Assembly: GCF_011392125.1 (NCBI RefSeq)
Contig: NZ_JAAJBU010000005.1
Span: forward strand, 62,001-126,000
Source: Flavobacterium lotistagni
Lineage (GTDB): Bacteria; Bacteroidota; Bacteroidia; Flavobacteriales; Flavobacteriaceae
Direction: 5' to 3'
Length of the DNA stretch: 64,000 bases
Position numbers and translations under genes: made by a program. This document shows, one piece after another, positions 26,841-47,556 of the stretch. The notes under the pieces were generated by a model. The model did not search any database, had not been told where the DNA came from, and saw nothing but the letters and a program-made list of their open reading frames with translations. Positions within the stretch are counted from its first letter, which is position 1. Each line of letters opens with the position of its first letter.

Positions 26841-26925
26841 AGCCCTAGCCCTGATGGTAGTGTAAATCCTTTTGTTCTGGGGTTCAGAACAAAAGATTGC
26901 AACGCACAGCAGGTTCCCGGCTCCT
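26841..26925 (+). repeat. Hairpin repeat, copy B
   Basis: Left arm AGCCCTAGCCCTGATGG, central hairpin with a perfect 11 bp stem CTTTTGTTCTG/CAGAACAAAAG (26869-26895, loop GGGTT), and right arm AGCAGGTTCCCGGCTCCT. It ends 26 bp before the ABC transporter start, on the same strand. Confidence 0.8.
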
Positions 26926-26950
26926 AAAAAACTAAGGCACTCAGCAACTC

Positions 26951-28723
26951 ATGAAAGCAAAAGCATTCGACACCAACGTTTTCAAACGCATCCTGAAATA
27001 TGCCGCACCTTACCGTTGGCGGTTCAACAGCGTGATTGCCTTTGCCGTTTTCTTGTCGGTATTTGCAGCGTTGCGGCCGTACTTGCTCAAACAAACCGTC
27101 GATGATTACCTCAAAGTACACGATGCGCGCGGGCTTTTGTTCTACATTACACTCATGGGCGTGGTGCTGCTGGCTGAAGTGCTCTCACAATTTTATTTCG
27201 TGCTTTGGGCGAACTGGCTCGGGCAAGATATTGTGAAAGACATTCGCATCAAACTCTTCCGGCATATGCTGAGTTTTAAGATGCAGTATTACGATCATTC
27301 GCCGGTTGGGCAACTGGTAACGCGCACGGTTTCTGACATTGAGCAAATTGCGAAAATCTTCAGCCAAGGTTTGTTTATGATTATCAGCGATTTGATGAAG
27401 ATGCTTGTGATCTTGGTTTTTATGTTCTACATGAATTGGGAACTGACTTGGATTGTGATTGTTGCGATGCCGATTTTGCTGTTCTTCACCCGGATTTTCC
27501 AACGTAAGATGCAAGTGGCTTTTGAGGAAGTACGAACACAAGTAGCAGCCATGAACACTTTCGTGCAAGAACGCGTGACCGGAATGAAAATCGTGCAATT
27601 GTTCAACCGCGAGGAAATCGAGGCCGAAAAATTTAGTCAAATTAATGATAAACACCGAAAAGCTTGGATCAAGACGATTCTTTACAACTCGATTTTTTTC
27701 CCGATTGCCGATATTATTTCGTCTTTGACTTTAGGCTTTGTAGTACTTTACGGCGGATTCAAGATTCTCGGCGGCCACCATTTCACGACTTTCGGCGATT
27801 TGTTTTCCTATACGATGTTCATCGGAATGTTGTTCAACCCGTTACGGCAAATTGCCGATAAGTTCAACGAGATGCAGATGGGCATGATTTCGGCCAATCG
27901 CGTGTTCGACATCATTGATACCGAAGACCACATTCAAGACAACGGAACTATTGAAGCACCGAAATTTTCAGGCAATATTGAATTCAACGACGTGCATTTC
28001 AGTTATGTCAAAGGCGAGGAAATCATTAAAGGAATCGATCTGAAGGTAAAAGCTGGCGAAACTGTAGCGATTGTTGGGTCAACTGGCGCCGGAAAATCAA
28101 CGATCATCAATTTGCTGAACCGTTTTTACGAACTCGACAAAGGCTCGATTTATATAGACGGTATCGATTTGAAAGCTTACCAACTGGATTCCATCCGACG
28201 ACAGATTGCGGTAGTTTTGCAAGATGTTTTCCTGTTTGCCGATACCATTCTGAACAACATTACGCTCAACAATCCGGAGATTTCACGCGAAGCTGTAACG
28301 GAAGCTGCAAAGAAGATTGGTGTACACGATTTTATCATGAGCCTGCCGCAAGGTTACGATTACAATGTGAAAGAACGCGGTGTGATGCTTTCCTCGGGCC
28401 AGCGCCAATTGATTGCGTTTTTGCGCGCTTACGTGAGCCAGCCGAGTATTTTGATTCTGGATGAAGCGACTTCTTCGGTCGATACGTATTCTGAGGAATT
28501 GATTCAAAATGCCACTGCGAAAATTACCGAAGGCCGCACTTCGATTGTAATTGCACACCGTTTGGCTACAATTGTCAACGCCGATAAAATCGTAGTCATG
28601 GACAAAGGGCTCATTGTAGAGCAAGGCAATCATATCGAACTACTGAATATTGCCGACGGTTATTATAGAAATCTTTACTACTCGCAATTTTTGGTCGAAA
28701 CCGATTCGTCAATTGACAATTGA
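26951..28723 (+). CDS. ABC-type exporter, fused permease and ATPase
   Basis: This 590 aa half-transporter has six transmembrane helices (about 25-300) of the type I exporter fold and a C-terminal ATPase with Walker A VGSTGAGKST, signature LSSGQRQLI, Walker B ILILDEATSSVD and the H-loop in IAHRLATI. It should work as a homodimer, like MsbA or Sav1866, exporting lipids or hydrophobic compounds. The substrate is not readable. The region just upstream is a repeat block with no clear promoter, so transcription may start inside the repeats. Confidence 0.92.
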   Translation: MKAKAFDTNVFKRILKYAAPYRWRFNSVIAFAVFLSVFAALRPYLLKQTVDDYLKVHDARGLLFYITLMGVVLLAEVLSQFYFVLWANWLGQDIVKDIRIKLFRHMLSFKMQYYDHSPVGQLVTRTVSDIEQIAKIFSQGLFMIISDLMKMLVILVFMFYMNWELTWIVIVAMPILLFFTRIFQRKMQVAFEEVRTQVAAMNTFVQERVTGMKIVQLFNREEIEAEKFSQINDKHRKAWIKTILYNSIFFPIADIISSLTLGFVVLYGGFKILGGHHFTTFGDLFSYTMFIGMLFNPLRQIADKFNEMQMGMISANRVFDIIDTEDHIQDNGTIEAPKFSGNIEFNDVHFSYVKGEEIIKGIDLKVKAGETVAIVGSTGAGKSTIINLLNRFYELDKGSIYIDGIDLKAYQLDSIRRQIAVVLQDVFLFADTILNNITLNNPEISREAVTEAAKKIGVHDFIMSLPQGYDYNVKERGVMLSSGQRQLIAFLRAYVSQPSILILDEATSSVDTYSEELIQNATAKITEGRTSIVIAHRLATIVNADKIVVMDKGLIVEQGNHIELLNIADGYYRNLYYSQFLVETDSSIDN

Positions 28724-28878
28724 TATTGGGTAACGGATAATTAAAAAAATCTGGAAATAATGTTTAATTTCGCACTGGATTTTTTCCGATTAAAAAAAGA
28801 AGAAATAAAATACATATTATACGGCACGAGCGTCAGCGACTGCATTTTTTACCTTAATAACAAATAAAACTTTAAAAA

Positions 28879-30267
28879 ATGAAATACGATGTTATTGTTT
28901 TAGGAAGTGGCCCGGGCGGTTATGTAACGGCGATTAGGGCTTCCCAACTGGGCTTTAAGACAGCCGTGGTTGAAAAGGAAAACTTAGGCGGTGTTTGTCT
29001 CAATTGGGGATGCATCCCGACCAAAGCCTTGCTCAAATCAGCACAGGTTTTTGATTACCTAAAACACGCATCAGACTACGGATTGTCTGTTTCTGCTTAT
29101 GATAAAGACTTCAACGCTGTCGTGGCCAGAAGCCGCTCGGTTGCCGACGGAATGAGCAAAGGCGTGCAATTCCTGATGAAGAAAAACAAAATCGACGTGA
29201 TCGAAGGTTTCGGAAAACTCAAGCCAGGAAAAAAACTTGACGTAACTGCCGCCGACGGAAAAGTCACCGAATATTCGGCCGATCATATTATCATTGCCAC
29301 CGGAGCCCGTTCGCGCGAGTTGCCAAATTTGCCGCAAGACGGTAAAAAAGTAATCGGTTACCGCCAAGCGATGACTTTACCTAATCAGCCAAAATCTATG
29401 ATTATTGTAGGTTCGGGTGCTATTGGTGTTGAGTTCGCTCATTTCTATAACTCCATGGGAACCGATGTCACGATTGTAGAATTCATGCCGAATATCGTTC
29501 CGGTTGAAGACGAAGATATCTCTAAACAAATGGAACGCTCGATGAAAAAAGCCGGCGTAAAAATCATGACGAGTTCGTCGGTCGAAAAAATCGATACGTC
29601 GGGTTCAGGTGTGAAAGCAACGGTTAAAACAGCTAAAGGCGAAGAAATTCTTGAAGCCGAAATTTTGCTTTCTGCCGTCGGAATTAAAACCAACATTGAA
29701 AACATTGGCCTAGAAGAAGTAGGCATCGCGGTAGACAAAGACAAAATCCTTGTGAACGCCTATAACCAAACAAATATTCCGGGTTATTATGCCATTGGCG
29801 ATGTTACGCCCGGACAAGCTTTGGCACACGTAGCTTCTGCTGAAGGAATTAACTGTGTAGAAAAAATTGCGGGCATGCACGTGCAACCAATCGATTACGG
29901 AAACATTCCGGGTTGTACTTATGCCACGCCAGAAATTGCTTCAGTCGGTCTGACCGAAAAACAAGCCAAAGAAAAAGGTTACGAACTCAAAATCGGTAAA
30001 TTCCCATTTACTGCTTCCGGAAAAGCCAAAGCTGCTGGAACACCAGACGGTTTCGTGAAAGTAATCTTCGATGCCAAATACGGAGAATGGTTGGGTTGTC
30101 ACATGATTGGCGCCGGCGTGACCGACATGATTGCCGAAGCTGTGGTAGCCAGAAAATTGGAAACTACTGGACACGATATCCTAAAAGCCGTGCATCCGCA
30201 CCCAACGATGAGCGAAGCAGTGATGGAAGCTGTGGCCGATGCCTATGGAGAAGTGATTCATTTGTAA
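28879..30267 (+). CDS. lpdA: Dihydrolipoyl dehydrogenase (E3)
   Basis: This 462 aa FAD-dependent disulfide oxidoreductase reoxidises dihydrolipoamide of the 2-oxoacid dehydrogenase and glycine cleavage complexes with NAD+. It has the FAD motif VLGSGPGGYVTAIRA, the redox pair in GGVCLNWGCIP (Cys40, Cys45), the NAD-binding VGSGAIGVEFA and the C-terminal active-site HPHPTMSEA (His-Glu). The length is normal. Upstream 155 bp is AT-rich with no gene or certain promoter. No E1/E2 genes are adjacent; a stand-alone E3 is usual in flavobacteria. Confidence 0.95.
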   Translation: MKYDVIVLGSGPGGYVTAIRASQLGFKTAVVEKENLGGVCLNWGCIPTKALLKSAQVFDYLKHASDYGLSVSAYDKDFNAVVARSRSVADGMSKGVQFLMKKNKIDVIEGFGKLKPGKKLDVTAADGKVTEYSADHIIIATGARSRELPNLPQDGKKVIGYRQAMTLPNQPKSMIIVGSGAIGVEFAHFYNSMGTDVTIVEFMPNIVPVEDEDISKQMERSMKKAGVKIMTSSSVEKIDTSGSGVKATVKTAKGEEILEAEILLSAVGIKTNIENIGLEEVGIAVDKDKILVNAYNQTNIPGYYAIGDVTPGQALAHVASAEGINCVEKIAGMHVQPIDYGNIPGCTYATPEIASVGLTEKQAKEKGYELKIGKFPFTASGKAKAAGTPDGFVKVIFDAKYGEWLGCHMIGAGVTDMIAEAVVARKLETTGHDILKAVHPHPTMSEAVMEAVADAYGEVIHL

Positions 30268-30289
30268 CACTCACTCCAACATAATATCC

Positions 30290-30323
30290 AAAATCCGTCT
30301 GTTCAACCAAGGCGGATTTTTTT
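30290..30323 (+). terminator. lpdA terminator
   Basis: AAATCCG pairs with CGGATTT and a T run follows. The hairpin resembles the two near-identical ones at 33053 and 34609. Confidence 0.85.
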
Positions 30324-30327
30324 ATTC

Positions 30328-30335
30328 TATATTTG
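30328..30335 (+). promoter_or_regulatory. -7 box of the CotH-like gene
   Basis: TATATTTG, an exact consensus match, lies 26 nt before the ATG and just after the lpdA terminator. Confidence 0.55.
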
Positions 30336-30361
30336 AACCTACAAAACCGACACTATCTTTC

Positions 30362-32431
30362 ATGAAAACCAAGTTAACCGTTCTATTTTTTCTTTTAGTC
30401 AGCTCTTTCTCCTACTCACAAACTTTTTCAGGAACAACCGGAACAGTGAGCGACGACGGACAGCCCAATGATTTTATTGCAACGGTTTCAGGGCTCGCAG
30501 TCAACCAGTTAGGCAACTCGTTAGGTTTGGTTCAGGTCTGTCTCAATATTACACATACTTACGATTCCGATTTAAATGTATTCCTGATTGCGCCCGACGG
30601 AACCACCATTAACCTTTTCTCGGGCATCGGTGGCAGCGATGACAATTTCAACAATACTTGCCTAAATCAAAGTGCCGCCAATTCGATCAATACTGCCAGT
30701 GCGCCGTTCACCGGAATTTTCAAACCACAAGAAACGTTGGGCAATTGCAATAACGGTCAAAACGGAAATGGCAACTGGACGCTTCGCATTGTAGATACTT
30801 ACGCGCAAGACGAAGGTATCGTCAATCATTGGAGTTTAACTTTTGGCGACAATGCAGCCACGCCTTTTGTTTTTACTTCATCGAATTTGCCGATTGTGAT
30901 TATCAACACCGGTGGCGTTCCTATTGCTGATGAGCCTTCGATTGCCGCCACTATGCAAATCATCGATAACGGTCAGGGAAATACCAATTATGTCACCGAT
31001 ACGCCGAATGATTATAACGGACAAATTGCCATAGAATACCGCGGTGCCTACTCGCAATCTTTGCCTCAAAAGCCTTTTAAGATAGAAACTCAGGATATTG
31101 AAGGCGCAGAACTGAATGTTTCACTGCTCGGAATGCCCGAAGAACACGATTGGAATTTGATTGCCAATTACAACGACAAAGTTTTCATGCGCAATAGTTT
31201 GGCCTATCAACTTTTTACCGATATGGGCCATTATGCAGCCAGAAACCGCTACTGTGAAGTGGTGGTCAACGGGGTTTATCAAGGAATTTATTTGCTCATG
31301 GAAAGCCTCAAAAGAGACAACAATCGCATCGACATTGCCAAACTCGAAGCCACCGAAAATTCAGGCATCGACCTTACCGGCGGCTATATTCTGAAAAACG
31401 ATTATTGGGATGATTCCAATAGCTGGCAAACGCAATTTCACCCTATTGACCATCCGGAACTCGACGTGCATTTGGTGTATGATTATCCGAAGCCCGATAA
31501 TATCACCATAGAACAAAAAACCTACATCCAAGATTTCATCAACGATTTCGAAACAGCGCTATATAGCACCAACTTTGCCGATCCGGTGACTGGTTACGCG
31601 AAATATATCGACACAGATTCTTTCATTGATTACTTGATTTTAAACGAACTCACCCGCAATAACGACGGTTTCAAGAAAAGCAGTTATTTCCACAAAGACA
31701 AGGATGCTGCATCGGAAATGGCAAAACTTAAAGCCGGCCCGGTTTGGGATTTCGATTGGGCGTGGAAAAACATCAACGAATGCCCAATACTTTCCGTTAC
31801 CGACGGCTCGGGTTGGGCGCATCACATTAACGATTGCCAGCCCGATATCAATTCGCCAGGTTGGTATGTGAGATTGCTACAAGATCCGCATTTTCAGGAT
31901 TTATTTCGCTGCCGTTGGGAAAACCTGCGCACCACAATTTTAAGTATACCGGCGTTAAACACAGCCATCGATGCCCGCGCCAATTACCTAGATCAAGCCC
32001 AAGTACGGCACTTTGAAAAATGGGGCAATTTGGGGGTAAATTCCGGAGCACCTGAACTTGATAACGATCCGGCTACTTTTGCCGGGCAAATCACGAAGTT
32101 CAAAAACTGGATTGCCACCAGAATTGCTTGGCTTGACAACAACATTCCGGGGAATTCGGACAGTTGTAACCTCAGCACGAATGTTCCTCTAAATCCGGAT
32201 TTTCAGATTTATCCTAATCCCGCCAAAGACCAACTTCATTTGATTAATAAAACCAGCGCGAGTGTCACGGTAGAGATTTTTGATCTTTGGGGGAAATTGG
32301 TGCTGAAAACGATTGTCGATTCGCACAATCAAATACTCAATGTATCACAACTAATCGACGGGATTTACTGCTGCAAAATAGCGCACGATAACAACAATAG
32401 CTCGGTGCTGAAACTGGCGATACTGCATTAA
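30362..32431 (+). CDS. Secreted CotH-kinase-like protein with P domain and type IX sorting signal
   Basis: This 689 aa protein has a signal peptide and a proprotein-convertase P domain (about 20-165; DLNVFLIAPDGTTINLFSG and NWTLRIVDTYAQDEG). A CotH-like domain follows (about 180-600), with EYRGAYSQSLPQKPF, MRNSLAYQLFTDMGHYAARN and the metal-binding-type AGPVWDFDWAWKN. A C-terminal sorting domain (FQIYPNPAKDQLHL ... GIYCCKIAHDNN) ends it. CotH proteins in spore-formers are atypical kinases of coat proteins; a secreted version may modify or bind surface glycans or proteins. The substrate is unknown. It is a single gene with its own promoter. Confidence 0.85.
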   Translation: MKTKLTVLFFLLVSSFSYSQTFSGTTGTVSDDGQPNDFIATVSGLAVNQLGNSLGLVQVCLNITHTYDSDLNVFLIAPDGTTINLFSGIGGSDDNFNNTCLNQSAANSINTASAPFTGIFKPQETLGNCNNGQNGNGNWTLRIVDTYAQDEGIVNHWSLTFGDNAATPFVFTSSNLPIVIINTGGVPIADEPSIAATMQIIDNGQGNTNYVTDTPNDYNGQIAIEYRGAYSQSLPQKPFKIETQDIEGAELNVSLLGMPEEHDWNLIANYNDKVFMRNSLAYQLFTDMGHYAARNRYCEVVVNGVYQGIYLLMESLKRDNNRIDIAKLEATENSGIDLTGGYILKNDYWDDSNSWQTQFHPIDHPELDVHLVYDYPKPDNITIEQKTYIQDFINDFETALYSTNFADPVTGYAKYIDTDSFIDYLILNELTRNNDGFKKSSYFHKDKDAASEMAKLKAGPVWDFDWAWKNINECPILSVTDGSGWAHHINDCQPDINSPGWYVRLLQDPHFQDLFRCRWENLRTTILSIPALNTAIDARANYLDQAQVRHFEKWGNLGVNSGAPELDNDPATFAGQITKFKNWIATRIAWLDNNIPGNSDSCNLSTNVPLNPDFQIYPNPAKDQLHLINKTSASVTVEIFDLWGKLVLKTIVDSHNQILNVSQLIDGIYCCKIAHDNNNSSVLKLAILH

Positions 32432-32533
32432 ACAAAGCGGCAAAAACAAAATTATCTGTTTAAAAAACAGCTTGTTATACAAATTTGATTAAATTTACTT
32501 GAATTGAATCTTAACAAACTAATATTGAACAAG

Positions 32534-33031
32534 ATGAAAAAAACTGCATTTCTTATCGTATTGACCACGTTGGGTTTACTTTTAAATACAAGTTGTAAAA
32601 AGAAAGACCTCATGTTATCAGACAGTGAAACCTTTGATTTAGCTGCTGCCAAAGCTGCTGTTGAAGATGTTTACACCGATTTCGAAACGGCTTTCAACGC
32701 CAAAGACGCCATGTCATTGGCGAATTGTTATACCATCGATGGAAAATTTATGGGACCGAACATGAAAGCGGTTCAAGGCCGGGCCAATATCTCGCAAACT
32801 TTTAAAGAATGGTTCAAAGAAGACACTTCCAGAATCGATTTGACTTTGGTAGATATTTGGGGCAATGAAAACAACTTAACGGTAGAGAACACTTGGAAAA
32901 TTTCAGACAAAGACGGCAAAGTACTCGATGAAGGCAAATCCATTGAAGTCTACAAAATGGAAGACGATAAATGGAAAATGGTTCGCGATTGCTACAATTC
33001 GGATATGCCACCCATGCCGATGGGCAAATAA
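32534..33031 (+). CDS. SnoaL/DUF4440-like (NTF2 fold) lipoprotein
   Basis: This 165 aa product has a lipoprotein signal (LLLNTSC|KKK, Cys21). The mature part is a cone-shaped NTF2-like fold: AVEDVYTDFETAFNAKDAMSLANCYTIDG, then GRANISQTFKEWFK and VYKMEDDKWKMVRDCYNSD. This matches the DUF4440/SnoaL class, which often binds or turns over small ligands or serves as an envelope stress protein. The ATG at 32534 gives the signal peptide; the frame before it has none. A terminator follows. No neighbour suggests a specific job. Confidence 0.8.
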   Translation: MKKTAFLIVLTTLGLLLNTSCKKKDLMLSDSETFDLAAAKAAVEDVYTDFETAFNAKDAMSLANCYTIDGKFMGPNMKAVQGRANISQTFKEWFKEDTSRIDLTLVDIWGNENNLTVENTWKISDKDGKVLDEGKSIEVYKMEDDKWKMVRDCYNSDMPPMPMGK

Positions 33032-33052
33032 CCCGCACACAAGAATTCAAAG

Positions 33053-33088
33053 AAAATCCGCCTGCCGAACTGACAAGCGGATTTTTTT
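33053..33088 (+). terminator. Terminator, copy 1 of a repeated hairpin
   Basis: AAAATCCGC pairs with GCGGATTTT and a T run follows. The core, including its loop, is almost identical to the one at 34609-34643; only two loop bases differ. Confidence 0.85.
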
Positions 33089-33121
33089 ATTGCTTAAAAT
33101 AATCGCAAACGGACTTTGCCA

Positions 33122-33982
33122 TTAATGGAGTAAGTCGCCCAAGCCAAAAGCGGATACAAACTTCTGATAATCGCCCGCTGCCTTATCGTTGGTCTCTTTT
33201 ACGAAATTTCCGGTAAGCGAATCAACAACGGTGCGAAGTGGCCGCTTGCTTTGCGGAAGTGAAACCAGATGCAGTACGGCATCGGCTACATCCTGTGGGT
33301 TTGGCTTAGCATTTTCAAACAACTGTGAAATGCCGTGCCCGATTTGCTCCGGTAGGCCTGCAAGATTTCCATATTCAGCTGCCAGAGTAGTATCGGAACC
33401 GTAGCTTGATTTGGAGAATATTTCTGTAGGATACGCGCCAGGCTCAATGATCGCCACATCAATACCCAACGGCCTAACTTCATAATGCAGTCCTTCGCTG
33501 ATGCCTTCAACAGCAAATTTCGCTGCATTGTAAAAGGCCATGAACGGTGAAGAAAAGCGTCCCAAAACACTCGAGGTGTTGATAATGAGGCCATCCTTTT
33601 GTTTTCTCATCTGTGGCAATACCGCTTTGATGGTACGCCAGGTTGCTTTGACGTGAATGTTGAAGAGTGCGTCGATGTCTTCATCAGAAAAAGTTTCGGC
33701 AATACCACTGATAAAATTCCCGGCATTATTGACTAAGACGTCGAGTCGGCCCTCTTTTTTGATAATCTGGTTGACTGTAGCAGCGACCGATTCGTGGCTC
33801 GAAAGATCGGTTTCGATAACCGTTACGTTGGGAAGCTTGGAGAGTTGCTCCGCACTTTCTCTGTTACTGGTCGTACTGTTGCGCATCGTAGCATATACGA
33901 TATGACCCGCTTTTGAAAGTGTATGGGTGTGCAAATAGCCAAAGCCGCTGTTGGTTCCTGTGATCAGAATTACTTTTTTCAT
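33122..33982 (-). CDS. Short-chain dehydrogenase/reductase
   Basis: This 286 aa classical SDR has the NAD(P)-binding motif ITGTNSGFGYLH at residue 6, the NNAG strand motif (VLVNNAGNFISG), catalytic Ser in INTSSVLG and YNAAK (Tyr-xxx-Lys). It reduces or oxidises a carbonyl or alcohol; the substrate is unknown. It is divergent from an HxlR regulator 150 bp away, a common pairing in which the regulator controls the oxidoreductase in response to a reactive carbonyl or similar stress. Confidence 0.9.
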   Translation of the reverse strand: MKKVILITGTNSGFGYLHTHTLSKAGHIVYATMRNSTTSNRESAEQLSKLPNVTVIETDLSSHESVAATVNQIIKKEGRLDVLVNNAGNFISGIAETFSDEDIDALFNIHVKATWRTIKAVLPQMRKQKDGLIINTSSVLGRFSSPFMAFYNAAKFAVEGISEGLHYEVRPLGIDVAIIEPGAYPTEIFSKSSYGSDTTLAAEYGNLAGLPEQIGHGISQLFENAKPNPQDVADAVLHLVSLPQSKRPLRTVVDSLTGNFVKETNDKAAGDYQKFVSAFGLGDLLH

Positions 33983-34033
33983 TTTGTTTTTTAGTTTACT
34001 GTTACAATTGATGAAAGGATTATTAAAAAAATA

Positions 34034-34064
34034 TTGGTTTATAAAAGTGTATTAGTTACTTTTA
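34034..34064 (+). promoter_or_regulatory. Promoter of the HxlR gene
   Basis: TTG (34034-34036), a 20 nt spacer and TACTTTTA (34057-34064) form a near-consensus promoter. It sits inside a longer open frame and moves the true start to 34133. Confidence 0.6.
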
Positions 34065-34132
34065 GCGACCGTAAAATAACAGCAATTAAAATTACCCTAC
34101 AAGAAGGCACTAAGCCGAAACCCAGTTACCAA

Positions 34133-39741: not shown

Positions 39742-40866
39742 CTAAATCGATTGGAGTTGTTCCACTAGATAATCAATATCTTCATTCGCATTGAAATGGC
39801 TAAAAGAAATTCTCAGCGATGGCTTTTGAGCTGCGGCTTCATCAAGGATTTCAGCCAATACATGCGAAGGTTTAGCACTACCCGATTGGCAGGCACTACC
39901 ACGGGAAACCGCAATACCTTTCATGTCAAGATGGAACAACAACATCGCAGTCTTGTCTTGAGAAAAAGGAAGTTGAACATTCAGAATATTATAAAACCCG
40001 TCTGGATTTCCATTGATTTTGTAACCAGGAAAATGTTGTTCAAACTGAGAAACTGCATAGGCTTTGAGTGAAGAAATGTATTCTTGATGCACTTCGAGCT
40101 GGCTCATACTCAGTTCCAAAGCTTTGGTTAATCCGGCAATATTGTGCAAAGATTCAGTGCCCGGGCGCAGTCCTTTTTCTTGTTCACCGCCGTAAAGCAT
40201 CGGCTGCATTTCTATGCCTTTTCGAACAAATAGCAACCCAACTCCTTTCGGACCGTGAAATTTGTGCGCGCTGGCGACGATAAAATCAACCGGTAATTCT
40301 TGTAAATTAAGTAGTGTTTTACCCACTGATTGTACGGTATCGGAATGAAAATACGCGCCATGTTGTTTACAAATCCTACCGACCAAAGCCAAATCAAGCA
40401 CGGTTCCTATTTCGTTATTGACGTGCATCAACGATACTAGTGTTTTCTTGTTTTCTGAAAGCAACTGCACCAAATGATTCACGTCGATTTCGCCATTAGG
40501 CTGAACCTTTACATAATCCACTTTGATTTTAAATTCGGCTTGCAAAGCTTCAAGTACATGCAACACAGCATGGTGCTCAATTCGGCTCGAAATAATCCGT
40601 TCTACTTTTAACTGAACGACCACGTTTCGGAGCACCCAATTGTTAGATTCTGTTCCGCCCGAAGTAAAAATAATTTCTTGCGACAGCGCTCCAATGGCTT
40701 TAGCTACAGACTTTCTGGCAAGTTCCAAAACGCCTTTGCCTTGTCGTCCGAAACTGTGTGTCGATGAAGGATTTCCGAAATCTTCTTGCATTACACGAGT
40801 CATTTCAGCAATGACTTCCGGAGCAATGGGCGTAGTGGCTGCGTTGTCTAAATACACCTTTTTCAT
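39742..40866 (-). CDS. Cysteine desulfurase (NifS/IscS-like)
   Basis: This 374 aa PLP enzyme takes sulfur from cysteine as a protein persulfide. It has YLDNAATTP at the start, the PLP lysine in VASAHKFHGPKG and the catalytic Cys in SRGSACQSGSAKPSHVL. The loop length is like class I IscS/NifS. It may supply sulfur for Fe-S clusters, tRNA thiolation or the terminal Mo=S ligand that xanthine dehydrogenase needs, but it is 17 kb from that operon. A consensus -7 box (TACCTTTG on the minus strand, 40872-40879) lies so close to the ATG that the mRNA may be leaderless. Confidence 0.88.
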   Translation of the reverse strand: MKKVYLDNAATTPIAPEVIAEMTRVMQEDFGNPSSTHSFGRQGKGVLELARKSVAKAIGALSQEIIFTSGGTESNNWVLRNVVVQLKVERIISSRIEHHAVLHVLEALQAEFKIKVDYVKVQPNGEIDVNHLVQLLSENKKTLVSLMHVNNEIGTVLDLALVGRICKQHGAYFHSDTVQSVGKTLLNLQELPVDFIVASAHKFHGPKGVGLLFVRKGIEMQPMLYGGEQEKGLRPGTESLHNIAGLTKALELSMSQLEVHQEYISSLKAYAVSQFEQHFPGYKINGNPDGFYNILNVQLPFSQDKTAMLLFHLDMKGIAVSRGSACQSGSAKPSHVLAEILDEAAAQKPSLRISFSHFNANEDIDYLVEQLQSI

Positions 40867-40961
40867 GCCGCCAAAGGTAATGATTTTGACCGTCGCATCG
40901 TATTGAATTTAGATTGTCTGTTCTTAATTCATCTCTCTTGATACAATTCGTATTTTAAAAC

Positions 40962-40991
40962 TTGTTCGGGCGAATTAAAATCCTACTTTTG
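40962..40991 (+). promoter_or_regulatory. Promoter of the lipoprotein gene at 41013
   Basis: TTG (40962-40964), a 19 nt spacer and TACTTTTG (40984-40991) give a full consensus promoter. The ATG is 22 nt downstream. Confidence 0.75.
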
Positions 40992-41012
40992 CGATAATAA
41001 AATAGCTTAGGC

Positions 41013-41987
41013 ATGAAAAAAATTCTCGGATTACTGGCCCTGATTCTCGTTTTCAGCAATTGCGATGACGGCGATATGACAATTGAAACTATCGATTTTC
41101 AAGATGTACAGGCTGCTAGTTGTGGAGAAATTATTTACAAACTCAATGGTAACGAAGCTTTGTACATGAAAATTCCAACCGCTGCCAATGCATTTGCCAA
41201 TGAAATCACACCCACTGACGAACCAAGAATAATTACAATTGGAAGTTCTGTAAACGTGACTTATCGTGCTTACAACGGAAATGTTACTGCCGCCAATTTG
41301 TGCAATTCTCCTGCTCCGATTTCACCAACGGCTACTACTGAATGGACAGCTAGTGCTGGAACTATCGAAATCTCAACTATTGCCGTTTACTCAACACCTG
41401 ATGCAGTTACCGGAGCTACTAAAATTCTGAAGTATTTGCACAATATCGTGTTTAAAAATATAGTGTTTAACAAACCCGAAGGCACACAGGTATACGAAAC
41501 TTTCCCGTTTGGCGAATATGCCACCACAGCCACAACTTTGCCTTTGACTTTTAATCCGGACAACGTAGCCGTTTGCCCATCGAACCAATTACTTTACAAC
41601 GCTGGCAGCAACGACATCGAAGCGATTTACATTCAGAATTTTGATTCGAATCTGTTGAACACTTCTAATTTGGGAACGCCAAAAACAGCACTGATTTCAG
41701 CTACCAGCAACAAATTGGTTTATCGCTTATTTGAAACCGCTTTAACCACCACTAATCAAGAATATTTCTGCGGTAGTTCATTACCGAGCACACCAACAGT
41801 AACCCAAGAGTGGACAGCCCAAAATGGTGTCGCCGATACAAGCGGTATTATTGAAGTAGTCACTACGACAAACGGTTCTGGATTTTTGCACACCATTACC
41901 CTAAAAGCGGTAACCTTCCAAAAAGGCAACAGCACCTTTTATTTAGGCAATTCGATTGTCATAGGAAACTTGTTGACCACAAATTAG
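41013..41987 (+). CDS. Lipoprotein with two tandem related domains
   Basis: This 324 aa lipoprotein (lipobox LVFSNC, Cys17) has no recognised domain. It is an internal duplication: the first half runs NVTYRAYN..LCNSPAPISPTATTEWTASAGTIEI..YLHNIVFKNIVF, and the second SNKLVYRLF..CGSSLPSTPTVTQEWTAQNG..IIEV..FLHTITLKAVTF. Each half has one Cys in the same place and ends in a beta-rich block. The repeat unit is about 150 residues. It has its own promoter and no operon partners. It would face the periplasm or the cell surface; function unknown. Confidence 0.7.
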   Translation: MKKILGLLALILVFSNCDDGDMTIETIDFQDVQAASCGEIIYKLNGNEALYMKIPTAANAFANEITPTDEPRIITIGSSVNVTYRAYNGNVTAANLCNSPAPISPTATTEWTASAGTIEISTIAVYSTPDAVTGATKILKYLHNIVFKNIVFNKPEGTQVYETFPFGEYATTATTLPLTFNPDNVAVCPSNQLLYNAGSNDIEAIYIQNFDSNLLNTSNLGTPKTALISATSNKLVYRLFETALTTTNQEYFCGSSLPSTPTVTQEWTAQNGVADTSGIIEVVTTTNGSGFLHTITLKAVTFQKGNSTFYLGNSIVIGNLLTTN

Positions 41988-42006
41988 ATTCTAACAAACA
42001 AAAAAT

Positions 42007-42564
42007 TCAACTAAGTTTTGAATTCTGTTTAAAATAAACTTCAGTCGCGCCCATACCGTATTTCTGATAATTAGCATCGCGGAACGAAATGTTCTCGTAG
42101 CGACCCAACATAAAGTCGAGTTCGGCTTTCAAAATTCCTTCTCCTACACCGTGTATAAAAATGATTTTTGGAATGCGGTTTCTGATCGCGAATTCTATAT
42201 GCCGTTTTGCCGTTTCTGATTGCAAAGTGAGAATTTCGTGATGGCTCATCGACCGGAAATTTTTGACGAGCTTTTCGATATGAAGATCAAATTCTGGCGG
42301 CGGAATTTCACCTTTTACTTTAAGTTCAGGCACGGGATTCTTCCTTTTAGCAGTTTCTTTTTCTAGTTTAATTTTTTCTGAATTGAAACTTTCGATATTT
42401 TTACTTAAACTGCTGGTTTTAAAATTTTTAATCAACTGATTGACAAAATACGTCATCGTAAAACCTTCATCGGTTTCAATGGTAATTTCGTTATTTTTGA
42501 TTGAAATCACTGTGCCATCGATAGCATCGTCAAGCACTGAAACTTGGTCGCCAATTTTAAACAT
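42007..42564 (-). CDS. DUF2027-Smr domain protein
   Basis: This 185 aa protein has an N-terminal KOW-like/DUF2027 part (MFKIGDQVSVLDDAIDGTVISIKNNEITIETDEGF) and a C-terminal Smr domain, as in MutS2. The Smr motifs LDLH-like FDLHIEKL and IIFIHGVGEG(I)LK are present; HGxG is the nuclease/DNA-binding signature. It may bind or cut branched nucleic acids or RNA on stalled ribosomes. It overlaps the upstream small membrane gene by 8 bp, so translation is probably coupled. Confidence 0.85.
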   Translation of the reverse strand: MFKIGDQVSVLDDAIDGTVISIKNNEITIETDEGFTMTYFVNQLIKNFKTSSLSKNIESFNSEKIKLEKETAKRKNPVPELKVKGEIPPPEFDLHIEKLVKNFRSMSHHEILTLQSETAKRHIEFAIRNRIPKIIFIHGVGEGILKAELDFMLGRYENISFRDANYQKYGMGATEVYFKQNSKLS

Positions 42565-42739
42565 CGCCTTCCTCCTTTTCTTGATTTTTGCTAGGCGTTT
42601 TCGCGCTGAGTTTCATCATCCCAAACATAAAAACCACCACCGCTAAAATGACAATATAAATGTTTTTTTTAGGCTGCCCTACTTCATAAAAAGCAACAAT
42701 TATTGCCACAATCATTATCGGAATTAGTAATTTTTTCAT
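42557..42739 (-). CDS. Small membrane protein upstream of the Smr gene
   Basis: This 60 aa protein has two transmembrane helices (LLIPIMIVAIIVAFYEV and IYIVILAVVVFMFGMMKL) and a charged tail (SAKTPSKNQEKEEGDV). Its last 8 bp overlap the start of the Smr gene. The ATG at 42739 is right because a consensus -7 box at 42764-42771 lies between it and an earlier possible start. No family is recognised; it is a typical flavobacterial mini membrane protein. Confidence 0.7.
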   Translation of the reverse strand: MKKLLIPIMIVAIIVAFYEVGQPKKNIYIVILAVVVFMFGMMKLSAKTPSKNQEKEEGDV

Positions 42740-42763
42740 CTGGAATTGATTTAAGAATCGGTT

Positions 42764-42786
42764 CAAAAATAGCAACTTTAAATTTG
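42764..42786. promoter_or_regulatory. Back-to-back -7 boxes of divergent genes
   Basis: Minus-strand TATTTTTG (42764-42771) faces the 60 aa gene. Plus-strand TAAATTTG (42779-42786) faces the DUF2752 gene. Both match TAnnTTTG exactly and are only 7 bp apart, so the two polymerases would compete. Confidence 0.5.
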
Positions 42787-42829
42787 CACTACTGATTTTA
42801 CAATCATATTTTTTCGTAAAATTGTAAAG

Positions 42830-43126
42830 ATGAAAACGCTGATTTTAGACTTACAAAGGTATATGATTCCGTGCCTGAACAAAAAACTTTTTGGAATCGA
42901 TTGTCCGGGTTGTGGCACACAAAGAGCCATATTGCAATTGATCAACGGCAATTTCTCGGCTGCATTTCATCAATTTCCGGCCATATATACTACCATTTTA
43001 CTGTTCGGTTTTCTTGCCTTGCATTATATCGACAAAAGCCGCAATTACCACAAAATTATTATTAGTCTTGCAGTGATTAATGCTATGATTATGATAGTTG
43101 CCTATATTTACAAAATGACGCTTTAA
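42830..43126 (+). CDS. DUF2752 membrane protein
   Basis: This 98 aa protein has the family signature FGIDCPGCGTQRAI, in which CPGCG resembles a zinc or disulfide site, followed by AFHQFPAIYTTILLFGFLALHY. Two or three transmembrane helices are predicted. DUF2752 is widespread and uncharacterised. It is followed 10 bp later by a CCC-motif membrane protein gene, a pairing seen across Bacteroidota, so the two probably function together. Confidence 0.9.
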   Translation: MKTLILDLQRYMIPCLNKKLFGIDCPGCGTQRAILQLINGNFSAAFHQFPAIYTTILLFGFLALHYIDKSRNYHKIIISLAVINAMIMIVAYIYKMTL

Positions 43127-43136
43127 AACAAACATC

Positions 43137-43475
43137 ATGGAAAAACAAAAATTACCCAATTCCACAGTCGTTCTTATTTTAGGAATTTTATCAATTTTAA
43201 CTTGTTGCTGTTGGGGCATCATCGGTTTAGTACTCGGAATCGTTGCCCTGAATTTAGCCAAAAAAGACATTGCTCTTTACACAGAAAACCCCGAGCACTA
43301 TGATGGCTACTCAAATGTGATTACCGGCCGCGTTTTAGCAATTATCGGAATTGTATTGAGTTCGATTTACTTGCTCATCAATATATATATGTATACGGTT
43401 CTCGGTGAAGAAGGCATCAAGGATTTCCAACAAAACCTCATCGAAAAAATCAAACACCAACAAGAAATGGAATAA
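43137..43475 (+). CDS. CCC-motif membrane protein
   Basis: This 112 aa protein has two transmembrane helices, the first starting at ILGILSILTCCCWGIIGLVLGIVAL. The three consecutive cysteines at the membrane face give the family its name. It is related to DUF4190-type proteins. It forms an operon with the upstream DUF2752 gene and is followed by a strong terminator. Lipidation or disulfide shuffling of the Cys triplet is possible; function unknown. Confidence 0.85.
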   Translation: MEKQKLPNSTVVLILGILSILTCCCWGIIGLVLGIVALNLAKKDIALYTENPEHYDGYSNVITGRVLAIIGIVLSSIYLLINIYMYTVLGEEGIKDFQQNLIEKIKHQQEME

Positions 43476-43478
43476 AAC

Positions 43479-43509
43479 AAAAATCCTCCTGAATCGGAGG
43501 ATTTTTTTT
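43479..43509. terminator. Bidirectional terminator between CCC-motif gene and rocD
   Basis: AAAATCCTCC pairs with GGAGGATTTT (loop TGAATC), with A and T runs on both sides. Confidence 0.9.
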
Positions 43510-44752
43510 ATGCTTCAAACTGTTTCAGGGTTCGGATTATAATCGATACGCAATCGAGCAGTTGTTCTTCGTTCATGACCAATGGCGGTGCAAATCGGAT
43601 GATGTTGCCGTGCGTTGGCTTGGCTAATAAGCCGTTGTCGCGTAAAGCCATGCAAATATTCCAGGCTGTATCGCTTTCTTCGGTATCGTTGATGACAATC
43701 GCATTGAGCAAACCTTTCCCTCGAACTATGGTTGCGATATTTGAGGTTTGAATGTACTTGCCAAGTTCCTGACGGAAAATTTTACCTAATCGTTCTGCAT
43801 TTTCAGCCAGATGTTCTTCTTTAACAACTTCTAGTGCCGCAACCGCAACCGCAGCAGCAATTGGGTTTCCTCCAAAAGTTGAACCATGTTGCCCGGGTTT
43901 AATGACATTCATGATCGGATTATTGGCCAATACAGCTGAAACCGGATAAACTCCGCCTGACAATGCTTTACCCAAAATCAAAATATCCGGCTGCACGTTT
44001 TCGTGGTGAACTGCCAACAATTTTCCGGTTCGTGCAATTCCGGTTTGTACTTCATCTGCAATGAATAGCACGTTATATTTTTCGCAAAGTGCTTTTGCTT
44101 GGGCAAGATATCCTTCGTGCGGCACATAAACACCGGCTTCACCTTGAATGGGTTCTACCAGAAAACCAGCGATATTTGCCGAAGATTGTAATGCCTGCTC
44201 TAAAGCTTCAATTGAATCATAAGGCACTTTAATAAATCCTTCGGTATAAGGTCCAAAACTTTTGCGCGCGTTTTCGTCGTTAGAGAACGAAATAATGGTG
44301 GTCGTTCTTCCGTGAAAATTGCCTTCACAAACAATGATCTGTGCTTGCTGCGGCGCCACTCCTTTGACTTCATAAGCCCATTTCCGGCAAATTTTCAAAG
44401 CCGTTTCAACAGCTTCAGCACCAGTGTTCATCGGTAATACTTTATCAAACCCGAAGTAATTTGTAAGGTACTGCTCGTAAGGCCCTAGTTGGTCGTTGTA
44501 AAAAGCTCGTGAAGTAAGGGTAAGTGTTTGTGCCTGACGCATCATGGCGCCAACAATCTTCGGATGGCAATGCCCTTGGTTGACTGCGGAATAAGCCGAT
44601 AAGAAATCGTAGTATTGTTTTCCTTCAACATCCCAAACATAAACGCCGTCGCCTTTGCTGAGTACCACCGGAAGCGGATGGTAATTGTGAGCACCGTATT
44701 GGTTCTCGAGCTCCATTAATGCAGCAGAACTTGTTTTTTCTAAAACTGACAT
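43508..44752 (-). CDS. rocD: Ornithine-oxo-acid transaminase
   Basis: This 414 aa class III PLP aminotransferase turns ornithine and 2-oxoglutarate into glutamate semialdehyde and glutamate. The start [31 protein letters not shown] is diagnostic of OAT, as are [26 protein letters not shown] and the PLP lysine in [17 protein letters not shown], then [11 protein letters not shown]. It links arginine/ornithine breakdown to proline and glutamate. It has a full consensus promoter and is monocistronic. Confidence 0.95.
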
Positions 44753-44818
44753 GGATAGTATTTTTTAAATAAATGATAACAATTCCTACTTATGGAGAGA
44801 AATCATCCAATGCTGTTA

Positions 44819-44850
44819 CAAATCTAGGCAAAAAACTGAGCTTTTGACAA
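44819..44850 (-). promoter_or_regulatory. rocD promoter
   Basis: On the minus strand, TTG (44848-44850), a 21 nt spacer and TAGATTTG (44819-44826) match the consensus. This leaves a leader of about 60 nt before the ATG. Confidence 0.7.
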
Positions 44851-44879
44851 TTTTCAGCTATAAATTACTCTTAAGCCAA

Positions 44880-45923
44880 TCAGAAACGAATCGTAAAAGT
44901 TGCGCCTTTGTTCGCGCCTTCGCTCGCGGCCATCAATCGGCCTTTGTATCTTTCTACAATGGTTTTACACAAATACAAACCAATCCCTGTGGAAGGTTCG
45001 TTGGCCGTACCTTTCTTTTTGTGACTGGTAAATTTTTGAAACAGCGCATCGCTTTGTTCTAAATCGAAGCCCATGCCTTGGTCGTTAATTGTGATAACCA
45101 ACCGTTCTTTCTTCAGATAATACCGCACCATAATCTCGCTGTCTGGGAAAGAGAATTTAATGGCATTGTCTATTAGGTTGACCAAAACCCGAACGAGAAG
45201 TTCCGGGCTAATCAACAACTGCTTTTCGATCACTTCCACCTCAGAAACTAAGCTGATATTTTTTAAAACCAACTGTTGTTTCACCTGCTGTTCCACACTG
45301 GCTTGGATGTTTTGAAAATTAATCGAATGCCATTCCGGAACTCCTTTGGTAATCTCATCTTGCGCTTTGAGTAATCGGATAAAATTCTCAATGAAATGCA
45401 ACTGTTGCGAAGTCGATTGGTAAATGAGTTCAGCAAACTGCTTGATACTCGGAGAAGCGTCTTCTTTTAAGATAAGTTCTGCCAACGATTTTGAATTGCC
45501 CGTAAAGGTTCTCAAATCGTGCGACAACAAATAAGTCAAATCTTGTTTTTCGTTGATGTATTTCTCGTTGTCTTGAATCGTTTCCAGAATGTTGCGCATG
45601 AGCAAGCCAGCTTCATCTTTATATTCTATCGGAAGCAGCGGCATGGTGCGGTAATTTCTGTAATTATTGAGTGCATCTGATGCCAACTCGATTGGTGTAA
45701 TCAAACGTTTCAATACCAACAGCGTAATTCCCGTTGCTACCAAGGTCATCAGCAAAGTGAAAATTAACATCGTGACCGGCGAAGTCGAATGGGGCGCAAA
45801 CAGCACAAAAAACAAAATCCCGATTAGCGGTATATGAATACCCAAAAAGGCAATGAAAAGAAATTTAAAGGCGTAACTATTTTGAAGAAACCCTACTCGG
45901 GACAATCTTTTGTATAACTGCAT
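44880..45923 (-). CDS. Orphan sensor histidine kinase
   Basis: This 347 aa protein has two transmembrane helices (about 22-43 and 52-72), a HAMP-like linker, and an H box LTYLLSHDLRTFTGNSK (His in SHDLRT) with T-F-T where most kinases have PL. The ATPase motifs are present: N box NLIDNAIKFS, G1 DQGMGF and G2 STGIGLYLCKTI. Only a few residues lie between the two helices, so the signal is probably sensed within the membrane or cytoplasm. No response regulator is adjacent. Confidence 0.88.
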   Translation of the reverse strand: MQLYKRLSRVGFLQNSYAFKFLFIAFLGIHIPLIGILFFVLFAPHSTSPVTMLIFTLLMTLVATGITLLVLKRLITPIELASDALNNYRNYRTMPLLPIEYKDEAGLLMRNILETIQDNEKYINEKQDLTYLLSHDLRTFTGNSKSLAELILKEDASPSIKQFAELIYQSTSQQLHFIENFIRLLKAQDEITKGVPEWHSINFQNIQASVEQQVKQQLVLKNISLVSEVEVIEKQLLISPELLVRVLVNLIDNAIKFSFPDSEIMVRYYLKKERLVITINDQGMGFDLEQSDALFQKFTSHKKKGTANEPSTGIGLYLCKTIVERYKGRLMAASEGANKGATFTIRF

Positions 45924-46035
45924 CAGCGTTAATTTGGTTAAGAAATCATACTCACCGCTCCAATTGGGGTGGTTAAAACTACAAAAGATTTTTTTTCAAA
46001 TCGCAGTCAATCAACAAAATATCGACGTAATGCAT

Positions 46036-46071
46036 GAAAAAAGCCACAACTACCCAAAAGCAATTGTGGCT
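46036..46071 (-). terminator. Terminator of the purine-degradation operon
   Basis: On the minus strand, AGCCACAA pairs with TTGTGGCT and a T run follows. It lies 27 bp after the DUF6986 stop. Confidence 0.8.
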
Positions 46072-46097
46072 CGAAACGATTTATAGCTAAGCTTGCG

Positions 46098-47432
46098 TTA
46101 TTTCGCCATTCTGTTTTCAAGGATTTTCTTGAACGATCGGCCTCGGATTTCTTCCAGTGTCAAACCGGTAGCCAAAACTTCTTCTTCGGTAATTGCCCCA
46201 CTATTCAGTGCTCGCAAGAAGTAATTCAACAAACCTTGTCCGGTCGCCGCATCGTCAAACACATCGCCAATCAAAGTCGCACGTGCTGCCTTGTCTACAA
46301 AAGTTTTCAAACGCTCTACCGCATCATCGTAGCTTTCTAAAAAGAACGCGTAAACGGCCGCATAACGCATCGGGAACTGCGCCGGGTTCAAATCCCAACC
46401 TTGGTAATAACCGTTCCAGAGCGAATGGCGGATATGATCATAACCTTTCTTCCACGCGCGGTGCACCACTTGGCGGTTTTCTTCTTCTTGCTCCGGAGTC
46501 AAATCGCCTCGATGCGGGCCAATCGGCATCGTGTTAGTCGCTCCGTCGCTGAGCCAAATTCCGGTATGCGCCAAAGCCACTTTGGTCATGTGGTGCGCAA
46601 AATCGCAAACCGGATGGTCCATTTCCTGATATTTGGCTGTAATGCTGCAACTCGCGGTATAGTCATAAGTTCCGAAATGCATCGCCACACACCTGCCCTG
46701 CGCCGCCTTGATAAAACGGTATAACGGATTGGTGCCGTTGATGTCCATGATAGCCTGTGTCGTTTCGACCATCATTTCCATTTTCAGGATTCCTTTAGTA
46801 AGTTTTAGTTCTTCTTCCAAGATTGTAAAGAAATTCGCCAAAGCTTCCGGTTGCTCGGGAATCGTGACTTTGGGCAACATCACCACAAAATTATCGGGCA
46901 ACTTTCCACCGGTTTCGCCCACCAAAGTTGTCAGGAAAATATCCAACGTGCGCAAACCGCGCTCTTTCATTTCTTCAGTAAAAGGCTTGATGCGGATGCC
47001 GATAAAAGGCGAAAGTGTCTTATCCTGCATGCCTTTAGCAACTTCTTTGGCCGCCGTGACTGCCGTGGCATCTTCTTCCTCGTTGCTGCGGTTGCCGTAA
47101 CCGTCTTCAAAATCGATCCGGAAATCCTCAATCGCCTCCGATTTCAATTTCGCCACGACCTTATCGTAAATGCGCTTGCTGAAATCATTACCGCCAGTGA
47201 GCCCGAATGCTTTCCCAAAAACCTCATGGTTGGGCGCATAAGTTTCCAGAATTTCTAAGGCACGCTGGCCCAAAGCAATCGGCGCATCCGATTTGAAAAG
47301 GTTCGCCCCGCCATATAAAGTATGTACAGGCTGGCGCTCGCTGCGGTCTCCGGGATAAATCTCGTTAAAAGCCGTATTGGCGGCACGCAAATTCCCGAAA
47401 AGCTGTTCTTTTTTATTTTGTGGAATGGTCAT
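46098..47432 (-). CDS. DUF6986 protein, CitE/malate-synthase-like lyase fold
   Basis: This 444 aa protein belongs to the HpcH/HpaI aldolase and citrate lyase superfamily. Visible active-site blocks are GIRIKPF (Arg; compare VRIN of CitE), EMMVETTQAIMD (metal-binding Glu; compare IETP) and AMHFGTYDYTAS (metal-binding Asp; compare GAEDYTAD of CitE and GRWDYIFS of malate synthase). It is at the tail of the urate operon, 137 bp after the HIU/OHCU gene with a hairpin repeat between. It probably handles glyoxylate or ureidoglycolate made by allantoicase; that is inference. Some databases name it phosphoenolpyruvate kinase, for which I see no motif evidence. Confidence 0.7.
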   Translation of the reverse strand: MTIPQNKKEQLFGNLRAANTAFNEIYPGDRSERQPVHTLYGGANLFKSDAPIALGQRALEILETYAPNHEVFGKAFGLTGGNDFSKRIYDKVVAKLKSEAIEDFRIDFEDGYGNRSNEEEDATAVTAAKEVAKGMQDKTLSPFIGIRIKPFTEEMKERGLRTLDIFLTTLVGETGGKLPDNFVVMLPKVTIPEQPEALANFFTILEEELKLTKGILKMEMMVETTQAIMDINGTNPLYRFIKAAQGRCVAMHFGTYDYTASCSITAKYQEMDHPVCDFAHHMTKVALAHTGIWLSDGATNTMPIGPHRGDLTPEQEEENRQVVHRAWKKGYDHIRHSLWNGYYQGWDLNPAQFPMRYAAVYAFFLESYDDAVERLKTFVDKAARATLIGDVFDDAATGQGLLNYFLRALNSGAITEEEVLATGLTLEEIRGRSFKKILENRMAK

Positions 47433-47474
47433 TTTTTTATGTTGAATGTTAAATGTTGAATTTTAAATGTATTA

Positions 47475-47556
47475 AGAAGCTGGAACCTGCTTTCCACTGT
47501 ATCTTTTCCCGTCTGAAAAGCCGGAAAAAGGATGCCGTTCCAATCAGGGCTAGGGC
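47475..47556 (-). repeat. Hairpin repeat, copy C
   Basis: On the minus strand: left arm GCCCTAGCCCTGATTGG, then a hairpin CTTTTTCCG/CGGGAAAAG (one G-U pair), then right arm AGCAGGTTCCAGCTTCT. Order and arms are the same as copy B at 26841, but the stem sequence is different. The repeat lies between the HIU/OHCU gene and the DUF6986 gene and is read in their direction. Confidence 0.8.

Follow-up and report, generated by a model that had tools for sequence, protein, structure and literature searches.

The stretch of DNA analysed here, 64,000 nucleotides of a contig of Flavobacterium lotistagni (NZ_JAAJBU010000005.1, positions 62,001 to 126,000) that we shall call the window, carries two copies of a hairpin-forming repeat in its intergenic DNA. 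The first, copy B, lies ahead of an ABC transporter gene, and the second, copy C, lies on the opposite strand between a fusion gene for OHCU decarboxylase and HIUase and a DUF6986 gene (table 1). According to a preliminary description of this DNA, made from its letters alone, the two copies have their left and right arms in common around middle stems that differ and yet both pair, even keeping a bulged C by an AT pair; all of this is read directly at both sites. Copies B and C belong to an already known family, Flavo-1 of Rfam (RF01705), for both exceed its curated cut-off (gathering score 42) across the whole model, 1-76 of 76, with an identical fold. The remark of the same description that similar elements are widespread in Flavobacterium, their function undescribed, is correct and applies to Flavo-1. 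What is added here beyond RF01705 comprises the symmetry of a middle section that we call the collar, the types of outer arm, the composites formed with other modules, the sites shared between species and the absence of an orientation bias.

Table 1. Flavo-1 elements of the window, their parts and the neighbouring genes (window coordinates)
Feature	Position	Strand	Remarks
Copy B, whole Flavo-1 element with flanks	26837..26934	+	Rfam core 26843-26920; RF01705 69.1 bits; model R1 86.3 bits
Copy B, left arm GCCCTAGCCCTGAT	26842..26855	+	its AGCC can pair with GGCT at 26919-26922; direct reading
Copy B, collar 5' strand GATGGTAGTG, partner AACGCACAGC at 26901-26910	26853..26862	+	conservation of A.G/G.A
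Copy B, variable apical hairpin CTTTTGTTCTG..CAGAACAAAAG	26869..26895	+	identical apex in 7/150 copies
Copy B, right arm AGCAGGTTCC	26908..26917	+	direct reading
Copy C, whole Flavo-1 element with flanks	47466..47561	-	Rfam core 47479-47555; RF01705 64.6 bits; model R1 80.7 bits
Copy C, left arm GCCCTAGCCCTGAT	47543..47556	-	direct reading
Copy C, right arm AGCAGGTTCC	47482..47491	-	direct reading
'Copy A': duplicated left arm (26742-26755), module X (core 26761-26774) and leader	26742..26841	+	5' unit of a composite that ends in copy B
ABC transporter gene (ABC_membrane and ABC_tran), downstream of copy B	26951..28723	+	upstream site bears Flavo-1 in many species
tRNA pseudouridine synthase gene (PseudoU_synth_1; truA-like)	24842..25597	+	gene kind preceding the Flavo-1/ABC site in relatives
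Open reading frame of 313 residues without Pfam match, between truA-like gene and composite	25603..26544	+	
DUF6986 gene, downstream of copy C	46098..47432	-	
OHCU decarboxylase-HIUase fusion gene, upstream of copy C	47570..48418	-	

Flavo-1 was listed in 2010 by Weinberg et al., in a table which marks it as probably an RNA ('RNA?' y), as not cis-regulatory ('cis-reg?' n) and as no switch ('Switch?' n) (PMC2864571). The 2021 transcriptome of F. psychrophilum, in its passage on the family, reports Flavo-1 matches at several 5' transcribed regions, finds matches indistinctly in sense or antisense of transcribed regions and places many outside them (PMC9723704), while the mention of the family in a 2022 review states no function for it (PMC9029176). 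The family has thus been named since 2010 and has no published function in the literature searched (the whole word 'Flavo-1', and RF01705), yet this genome holds at least 149 copies of it.

This copy number is a lower bound, since 150 of 885 candidates were scored with RF01705 and 149 of them matched. The 14-nucleotide left arm has 59 exact copies in the genome, 36 forward and 23 reverse, against 0 and 0 for its reversed control. A model of our own, R1, was built from 42 copies; applied to 88 stretches selected because they surround copies, some 0.8 million bases in all, it gave 167 matches with E no higher than 0.001, and in the window it reports only two elements at E 0.05. The listed matches of RF01705 omit 37 of the 166 TAGCCCNGAT arms in the stretches analysed, some of these being complete elements that differ in their apex. 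For the counts that follow, the best 150 of the 167 R1 matches were fitted to the structure as alignment A2.

Flavo-1 is a dispersed intergenic repeat whose + strand, the strand shown, folds as three layers: an outer arm, a near-invariant collar and, beyond a bulged C, an apex that varies freely. Stems that vary without keeping their complementarity would have spoken against the view, advanced in the preliminary description, that compensatory change reflects selection on structure; among the 150 copies, 96.1% of the 3366 cells of this fitted alignment are paired, against 80.9% after shuffling, double changes number 528 against 136.5 in shuffles, and the covariation score is 0.393, compared with 0.111 after shuffling and no more than 0.083 for slid alignments. 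An unfitted MAFFT alignment of 42 copies gives 95.8% paired and a score of 0.380. The outer arm opens with TAGC, the AGC of which pairs with a 3' GCT across a short bulge, and continues with CC-N-G and its partner; this first helix, with the pairing of AG and CT included, has 99.8% of its cells paired. The collar, 5' GATNGYARYG with 3' ARYGNANAGC, is made of two consecutive blocks in which an A.G mismatch, two pairs and a G.A mismatch follow each other, and the four mismatches are kept in 148 (A18.G), 146 (G21.A), 148 (A23.G) and 146 (G26.A) of the 150 copies. Equally constant are the bulged C and T10 of the TAG tag, within CCCTAGCCC, each kept in 148 of 150. The foot pair, N16, is Watson-Crick in all 150 copies, in four pair types (71, 40, 38 and 1) with zero wobble, and the collar pair N20 is so in 145. 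In genomes with few copies across Bacteroidota (30 loci giving 26 rows, which were selected on their score under a model in which the collar is included), the four collar positions hold in 25/25, 26/26, 25/26 and 26/26 rows.

The evidence for this structure is comparative and not thermodynamic, because the folding energy of copy C alone does not favour it. Folded by itself, copy B does well (z -2.85 as RNA and -2.52 as DNA) and its opposite strand fairly well (-2.12 and -2.05), whereas copy C (-1.08 and -1.92) does not reach the family fold. As to which strand folds, G.T exceeds A.C at paired positions by 73 to 18 in paralogues and by 16 to 7 in orthologues; since an A.C is a G.T on the other strand, this excess indicates that folding takes place on the + strand, be it RNA or single-stranded DNA, and not in a double-stranded cruciform. 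The orthologue alignment, A3, includes one row from the reverse strand of the own locus, which is counted in its covariation and in its G.T and A.C figures and omitted from the tree count and the Mantel tests given below.

The 3' tail of the element reads Y-C-T-R-A and is followed directly by an A-rich stretch, with 75-89% A at four positions in 129 copies. Such an end, together with the folding of the + strand, would suit a retro-element, the RNA of which is copied by a reverse transcriptase, but we consider this very improbable: with the RVT_1 profile at E 0.001 there is no match in five of the 16 genus genomes searched (G001, G003, G008, G012 and G013, some of these assemblies being fragmentary), and all 16 carry Flavo-1. 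The genome of F. lotistagni itself has one RVT_1 match, near a contig start (C12:1088-1669). Reverse transcriptases do not seem to be needed. The same tail bears on a family of intrinsic terminators, which the strong intergenic hairpins might suggest and which is the least credible of the explanations considered, for the hairpin is followed by A-rich and not U-rich sequence, without the run of U of a terminator, and gaps between convergent genes are not preferred.

Around this constant collar, the apex and even the outer arms are interchangeable. The 150 copies have 129 different apex sequences, in several length classes, and at least nine rows show a second type of outer arm, like GCGTTAGGGAT...AGCCCGGCC...GGCAACGCCC, with the collar unchanged; nine of the 167 matches in the own genome cover only positions 16-73 of the model, as do many in distant genomes with few copies. 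Some apices enclose a second, nested hairpin, whose core resembles AAAGCGACCNRCGGAAGCTCTT and whose own stem varies (loci L201, L203, L204, L210 and L211 of other genomes, upstream of the ABC gene, and C15:25536 of this one); RF01705 is the sole Rfam match in L201 and L203. The possibility that long apical loops of similar length, which resembled spacers, act as guides was dropped when several of them looked alike by eye and were taken as diverged relatives, no genome-wide search for matches having been made.

In the preliminary description a third copy, A, with yet another hairpin, was placed just upstream of copy B. Its left arm is present, but it is not a copy of the element: R1 does not detect it, and after the arm comes a module specific to the lineage, its core reading GATATTAAGAGGAG, the complete element lying 100 nucleotides downstream, so that 'copy A' is the 5' unit of a composite. 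Seventeen arms of this kind were read in the stretches of the genome, one of them truncated by a contig end. Wherever both arms of a composite are visible, the N16 base is the same in the first and the second, across the C, G and T classes, and at C2:36240 a leader of about 40 nucleotides is duplicated together with the arm. The core of this module X has 25 copies in this genome, one in G012, two in G013 and none in the 23 other genomes searched, from which it follows that copy A is part of a local expansion in this lineage, to which one subfamily and one composite are peculiar. As a repeat in its own right, module X (GATATTAAGAGGAG...GTCCAGTGGAC) lies mostly about 100-240 nucleotides upstream of a Flavo-1 element in the same orientation. 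Degenerate short repeats like CTAAGGCACTCAGCAACTCA occupy the intergenic DNA beside the copies, at 26929-26950 in the window and in the flanks of several others.

Beyond this species, Flavo-1 is present in 26 of 40 genomes (the own included), and in the genus its copy number extends from zero (G018 and G020) to at least 89 in the comparison set, besides the figure for the own genome. A sample across the phylum has it in 38 of 247 genomes, and the named genomes among the pattern matches listed belong to Flavobacterium, Chryseobacterium, Halpernia, Kaistella, Pedobacter and Chitinophagales; one Treponema metagenome-assembled genome is also among them, without explanation. A blastn search with copy B at E 0.01, which has little power for an element this variable, gave no match among 50,697 phage and 72,556 plasmid records; three viral contigs fit the pattern and reach the RF01705 cut-off, with 42.2, 45.4 and 62.6 bits.

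The placement of the copies is intergenic and not oriented: 141 of 149 overlap no called gene by more than 20 bp, on gene calls of our own from open reading frames and codon usage, which also underlie the independent set and the two groups of loci described below. The preliminary description had noted that copies B and C lie upstream of a gene on the same strand, and this does not extend to the family. Among copies between two same-strand genes, the own genome has 33 sense and 56 antisense (two-sided binomial p 0.019), and an independent set of named genomes 20 sense and 15 antisense (80 of 120 stretches, not counting 5 copies within genes and 25 at the edges of loci). The apparent antisense bias was also abandoned, as it is not repeated in the second set and the pooled p is 0.13. 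Gaps that hold an element are tandem in 84 cases, divergent in 26 and convergent in 19, and are similar in type to gaps without one (115, 43 and 32). Two groups, of three loci each and likewise from 80 of the 120 stretches, have the element in sense ahead of the same kind of gene, its end lying 23-25 and 28-31 nucleotides, respectively, from the gene start. A candidate case of common neighbours across genera (L240 and L288) was dropped as well, because the genes, once read, appear related and yet distinct. A role in organising the chromosome was likewise set aside: in G010 the sampled skew flips near 1.0 and 2.5 Mb, neither point coincides with the longest interval free of Flavo-1 (1.57-1.99 Mb), and the split of copies between strands is not beyond that of shuffles. 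In G060, a single contig, 58 of the 86 Flavo-1 matches are on the + and 28 on the - strand, and the split into arms is non-significant (0.126).

How long the copies stay in place can be followed at the site of copy B, the locus of which was searched against 398 genomes of the genus; among the matches listed, 22 (own excluded) start with the opening bases of the element instead of with the gene. We then compared 41 loci, a non-random set made of 20 in which the BLAST alignment reached the element, 20 hand-picked from the top of the list in which it did not, and the own. Flavo-1 lies upstream of the ABC gene in 33 of the 41, in a single orientation in all 33; of the 20 loci that the alignment had not reached, 12 carry it, two weakly (L198, E 0.004; L206, E 0.16). 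The other flanking gene is truA-like in the relatives, and in the window an open reading frame of 313 residues intervenes between that gene and the site. By eye, the truA frame seemingly reads through the element in L173, L176, L177 and L196. In L199 and L205, which have no Flavo-1 upstream of the ABC gene, there are other short repeats, CTATAAGCTTTAGGCTATAAGC and similar. On the tree of the ABC gene, carriers stand on either side of the midpoint root, and parsimony on the fitted alignment, swapped apices included, finds pairing preserved by 59 double and 10 single changes and broken by 22. Distances between apices (Mantel r 0.28, p 0.001) and between collars (r 0.44, reached in 0 of 2000 permutations) follow the distance between genes, which argues for inheritance in place and not for repeated insertion alone. 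The sister species of L179 and L181 have unrelated apices and a similar collar at this site, which means that an apex is at times replaced. In a second region, set against 13 relatives, there are four intergenic sites each occupied in three or six species, and the 18 occurrences, counted by hand, are all consistent in orientation within their site; two further sites are occupied in the own genome only, and two relatives each have one element elsewhere. Many copies occupy sites common to several species, in one orientation and with compensatory change.

In functional terms, this retention near gene starts makes a role as RNA the main rival to the explanation favoured below, even if we hold it to be unlikely. 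The element would then act in cis within messenger RNA near the starts or ends of genes, in processing, stability or translation, its collar being bound by an RNA-binding protein. Elements held at intergenic sites common to species with compensatory change would fit such a role, as would the two groups of loci with a constant short distance to the same kind of gene, A.G pairs, which are familiar in RNA, and the entries of the family as a small RNA gene in Rfam and as probably RNA in the 2010 table. That table has, however, a negative entry for cis-regulation (PMC2864571), the consistent sense placement upstream of genes that is expected of a cis-regulatory RNA is absent in both sets counted above, gap types with an element resemble those without, and many matches in F. 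psychrophilum lie outside transcribed regions. It is the lack of a repeatable orientation to genes, together with these F. psychrophilum matches (PMC9723704), that favours DNA over RNA.

A further alternative is that the element is a purely selfish repeat without any role for the host, lost slowly or inserted repeatedly, with its pairing restored by recombination between copies or by repair templated on the hairpin. We deem this distinctly unlikely. Consistent with it are the range of copy number within the genus, from zero to at least 149, the unclustered presence at the ABC site on the gene tree, the apices swapped between sister species at one site (L179 versus L181) and the behaviour of N16, all Watson-Crick in four types without wobble, as if both sides had changed together. 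Repair templated on the hairpin would, however, remove the bulge and the four A.G mismatches, although these rank among the best conserved parts of the element; intact folds persist at sites whose neighbouring genes have diverged by values that reach beyond 0.5 changes per site, and close relatives have apices in common.

The explanation that we prefer, though we hold it tentatively and with slightly less than even confidence, is that Flavo-1 is a structured repeat of the kind of the repetitive extragenic palindromes (REPs), in which a putative protein recognises the collar on one folded strand, and which was dispersed in bursts and then retained. The conserved mismatches, the near absence of wobble at N16 and N20 and the exchangeable base and apex point to a protein that reads the collar of a folded strand. 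Such a putative protein would be specific for structure, and the strand recognised would most likely be single-stranded DNA exposed in replication or repair; by analogy with the hairpins of REP and IS200 elements, the 5' TAG may serve as the guide and the 3' CT as the dinucleotide of cleavage. The same protein would have spread the Flavo-1 copies in bursts, after which they may have been retained with collar and pairing under selection, while the apex, unread by the protein, would drift by paired changes and be swapped at times. A bolder version, which we find doubtful, has Flavo-1 as the binding site of a putative protein found across Bacteroidota that recognises the collar only, in a REP-like system that depends neither on a REP-associated tyrosine transposase (RAYT) nor on a reverse transcriptase, with the copies domesticated at fixed sites. 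Base and apex would then be interchangeable adapters, through which one protein can serve hundreds of sites that have almost no other sequence in common.

Several observations weigh against a REP-like dispersal followed by retention. The long retention exceeds what is expected of a selfish repeat. Presence on the tree of the ABC gene needs seven changes, against a mean of 7.4 in shuffles (256 of 500 shuffles as low); presence alone is thus no proof of a single origin, and losses or repeated gains must be frequent. The survey of the Y1_Tnp profile and of neighbourhoods found no enzyme for Flavo-1: of the 40 genomes, 22 have Y1_Tnp, and among the carriers of Flavo-1 there is no match at E 0.001 in the own genome (G000), G004, G011, G012, G016 and G025, while G018 and G030 have Y1_Tnp without Flavo-1. 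Flavo-1 occurs at only three of 28 Y1 loci, some of them cut by contig ends, at a distance of 1.5-3 kb, and a fourth has a weak match (E 0.18); conversely, a Y1 relative was found in none of 116 own stretches, in none of 120 named loci and in one of 30 loci from low-copy genomes. The REP-associated transposases of relatives are flanked by different repeats of their own. No clean pair of empty and filled sites at high identity was found, so insertion itself is without a direct case. A bias between replication strands is absent, with split tests of 0.63 and 0.126 and, by our own count, 24 leading and 35 lagging copies in G010. A link to RAYT genes was consequently rejected, since neither the presence nor the neighbourhoods of Y1_Tnp follow Flavo-1. 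In one distant low-copy genome, a weak RF01705 match below cut-off, the only one there, with type-B arms (L372, 1501-1603), lies about 160 bp from an IS200-type gene; R1 does not find it, and as a single case it is not counted as support.

The family was known, its structure, spread and retention are now measured, and from its anatomy we infer the mechanism proposed. Two obvious classes of enzyme, Y1/RAYT transposases and reverse transcriptases, have been made unlikely, and copies can stay long in place while the two sides of the hairpin vary in concert about a middle section that hardly changes. The problem has thereby become testable, with a defined collar to be used as bait, common sites to be deleted or inverted, and congeners without a Flavo-1 match (G018 and G020) as natural controls.

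Among the closest known systems are the REPs and their transposases (RAYT, or TnpA-REP). The consensus of E. coli REPs combines GCC-K-GAT with ATC-M-GGC. Like the REPs, Flavo-1 has many intergenic copies and folds as one strand into a hairpin that keeps its mismatches; a pair close to the foot covaries freely, and a tag on the 5' side and the dinucleotide CT are likewise present in both, as far as the REP side is described in the relevant parts of PMC8266576 and PMC3733652. In the E. coli system, the sections of the former on cleavage report that the mismatch bulge is needed for it, that loop and upper stem are changeable and that the 5' tag is regarded as the guide of cleavage at CT (PMC8266576). 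Flavo-1 is nevertheless not a REP by definition: its matches extend over 68-129 nucleotides in place of a palindrome of 20-40 bp, its tag is TAG and not GTAG (or CGTC), it does not adjoin or flank RAYT genes, and it is present in genomes without Y1_Tnp. The repeats of Group 5 or subclass 2.6 RAYTs, as characterised in the pertinent part of PMC6006769, have in common with Flavo-1 the phylum, the lack of GTAG and copies elsewhere in the genome. They differ from it in that the repeats beside such genes in the relatives read, one family being like CCCGATAGCGCGGATTTGCAATCCGTGCCCAC, do not have the Flavo-1 collar; from our reading of their motifs, the transposase genes beside CCCGATAGCGCGGATTTGCAATCCGTGCCCAC-type repeats would be of subclass 2.6. 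In loci L126-L143, REP-associated transposase genes stand beside several distinct families of palindromic repeats, CCCGATAGCGCGGATTTGCAATCCGTGCCCAC among them, which are perhaps the 'atypical' repeats of that subclass. The layout of Flavo-1, with TAG, a mismatched hairpin, a short linker and CT in succession, is of the same kind as that of a REP, and for this reason a REP-like mode of action at the level of DNA is preferred.

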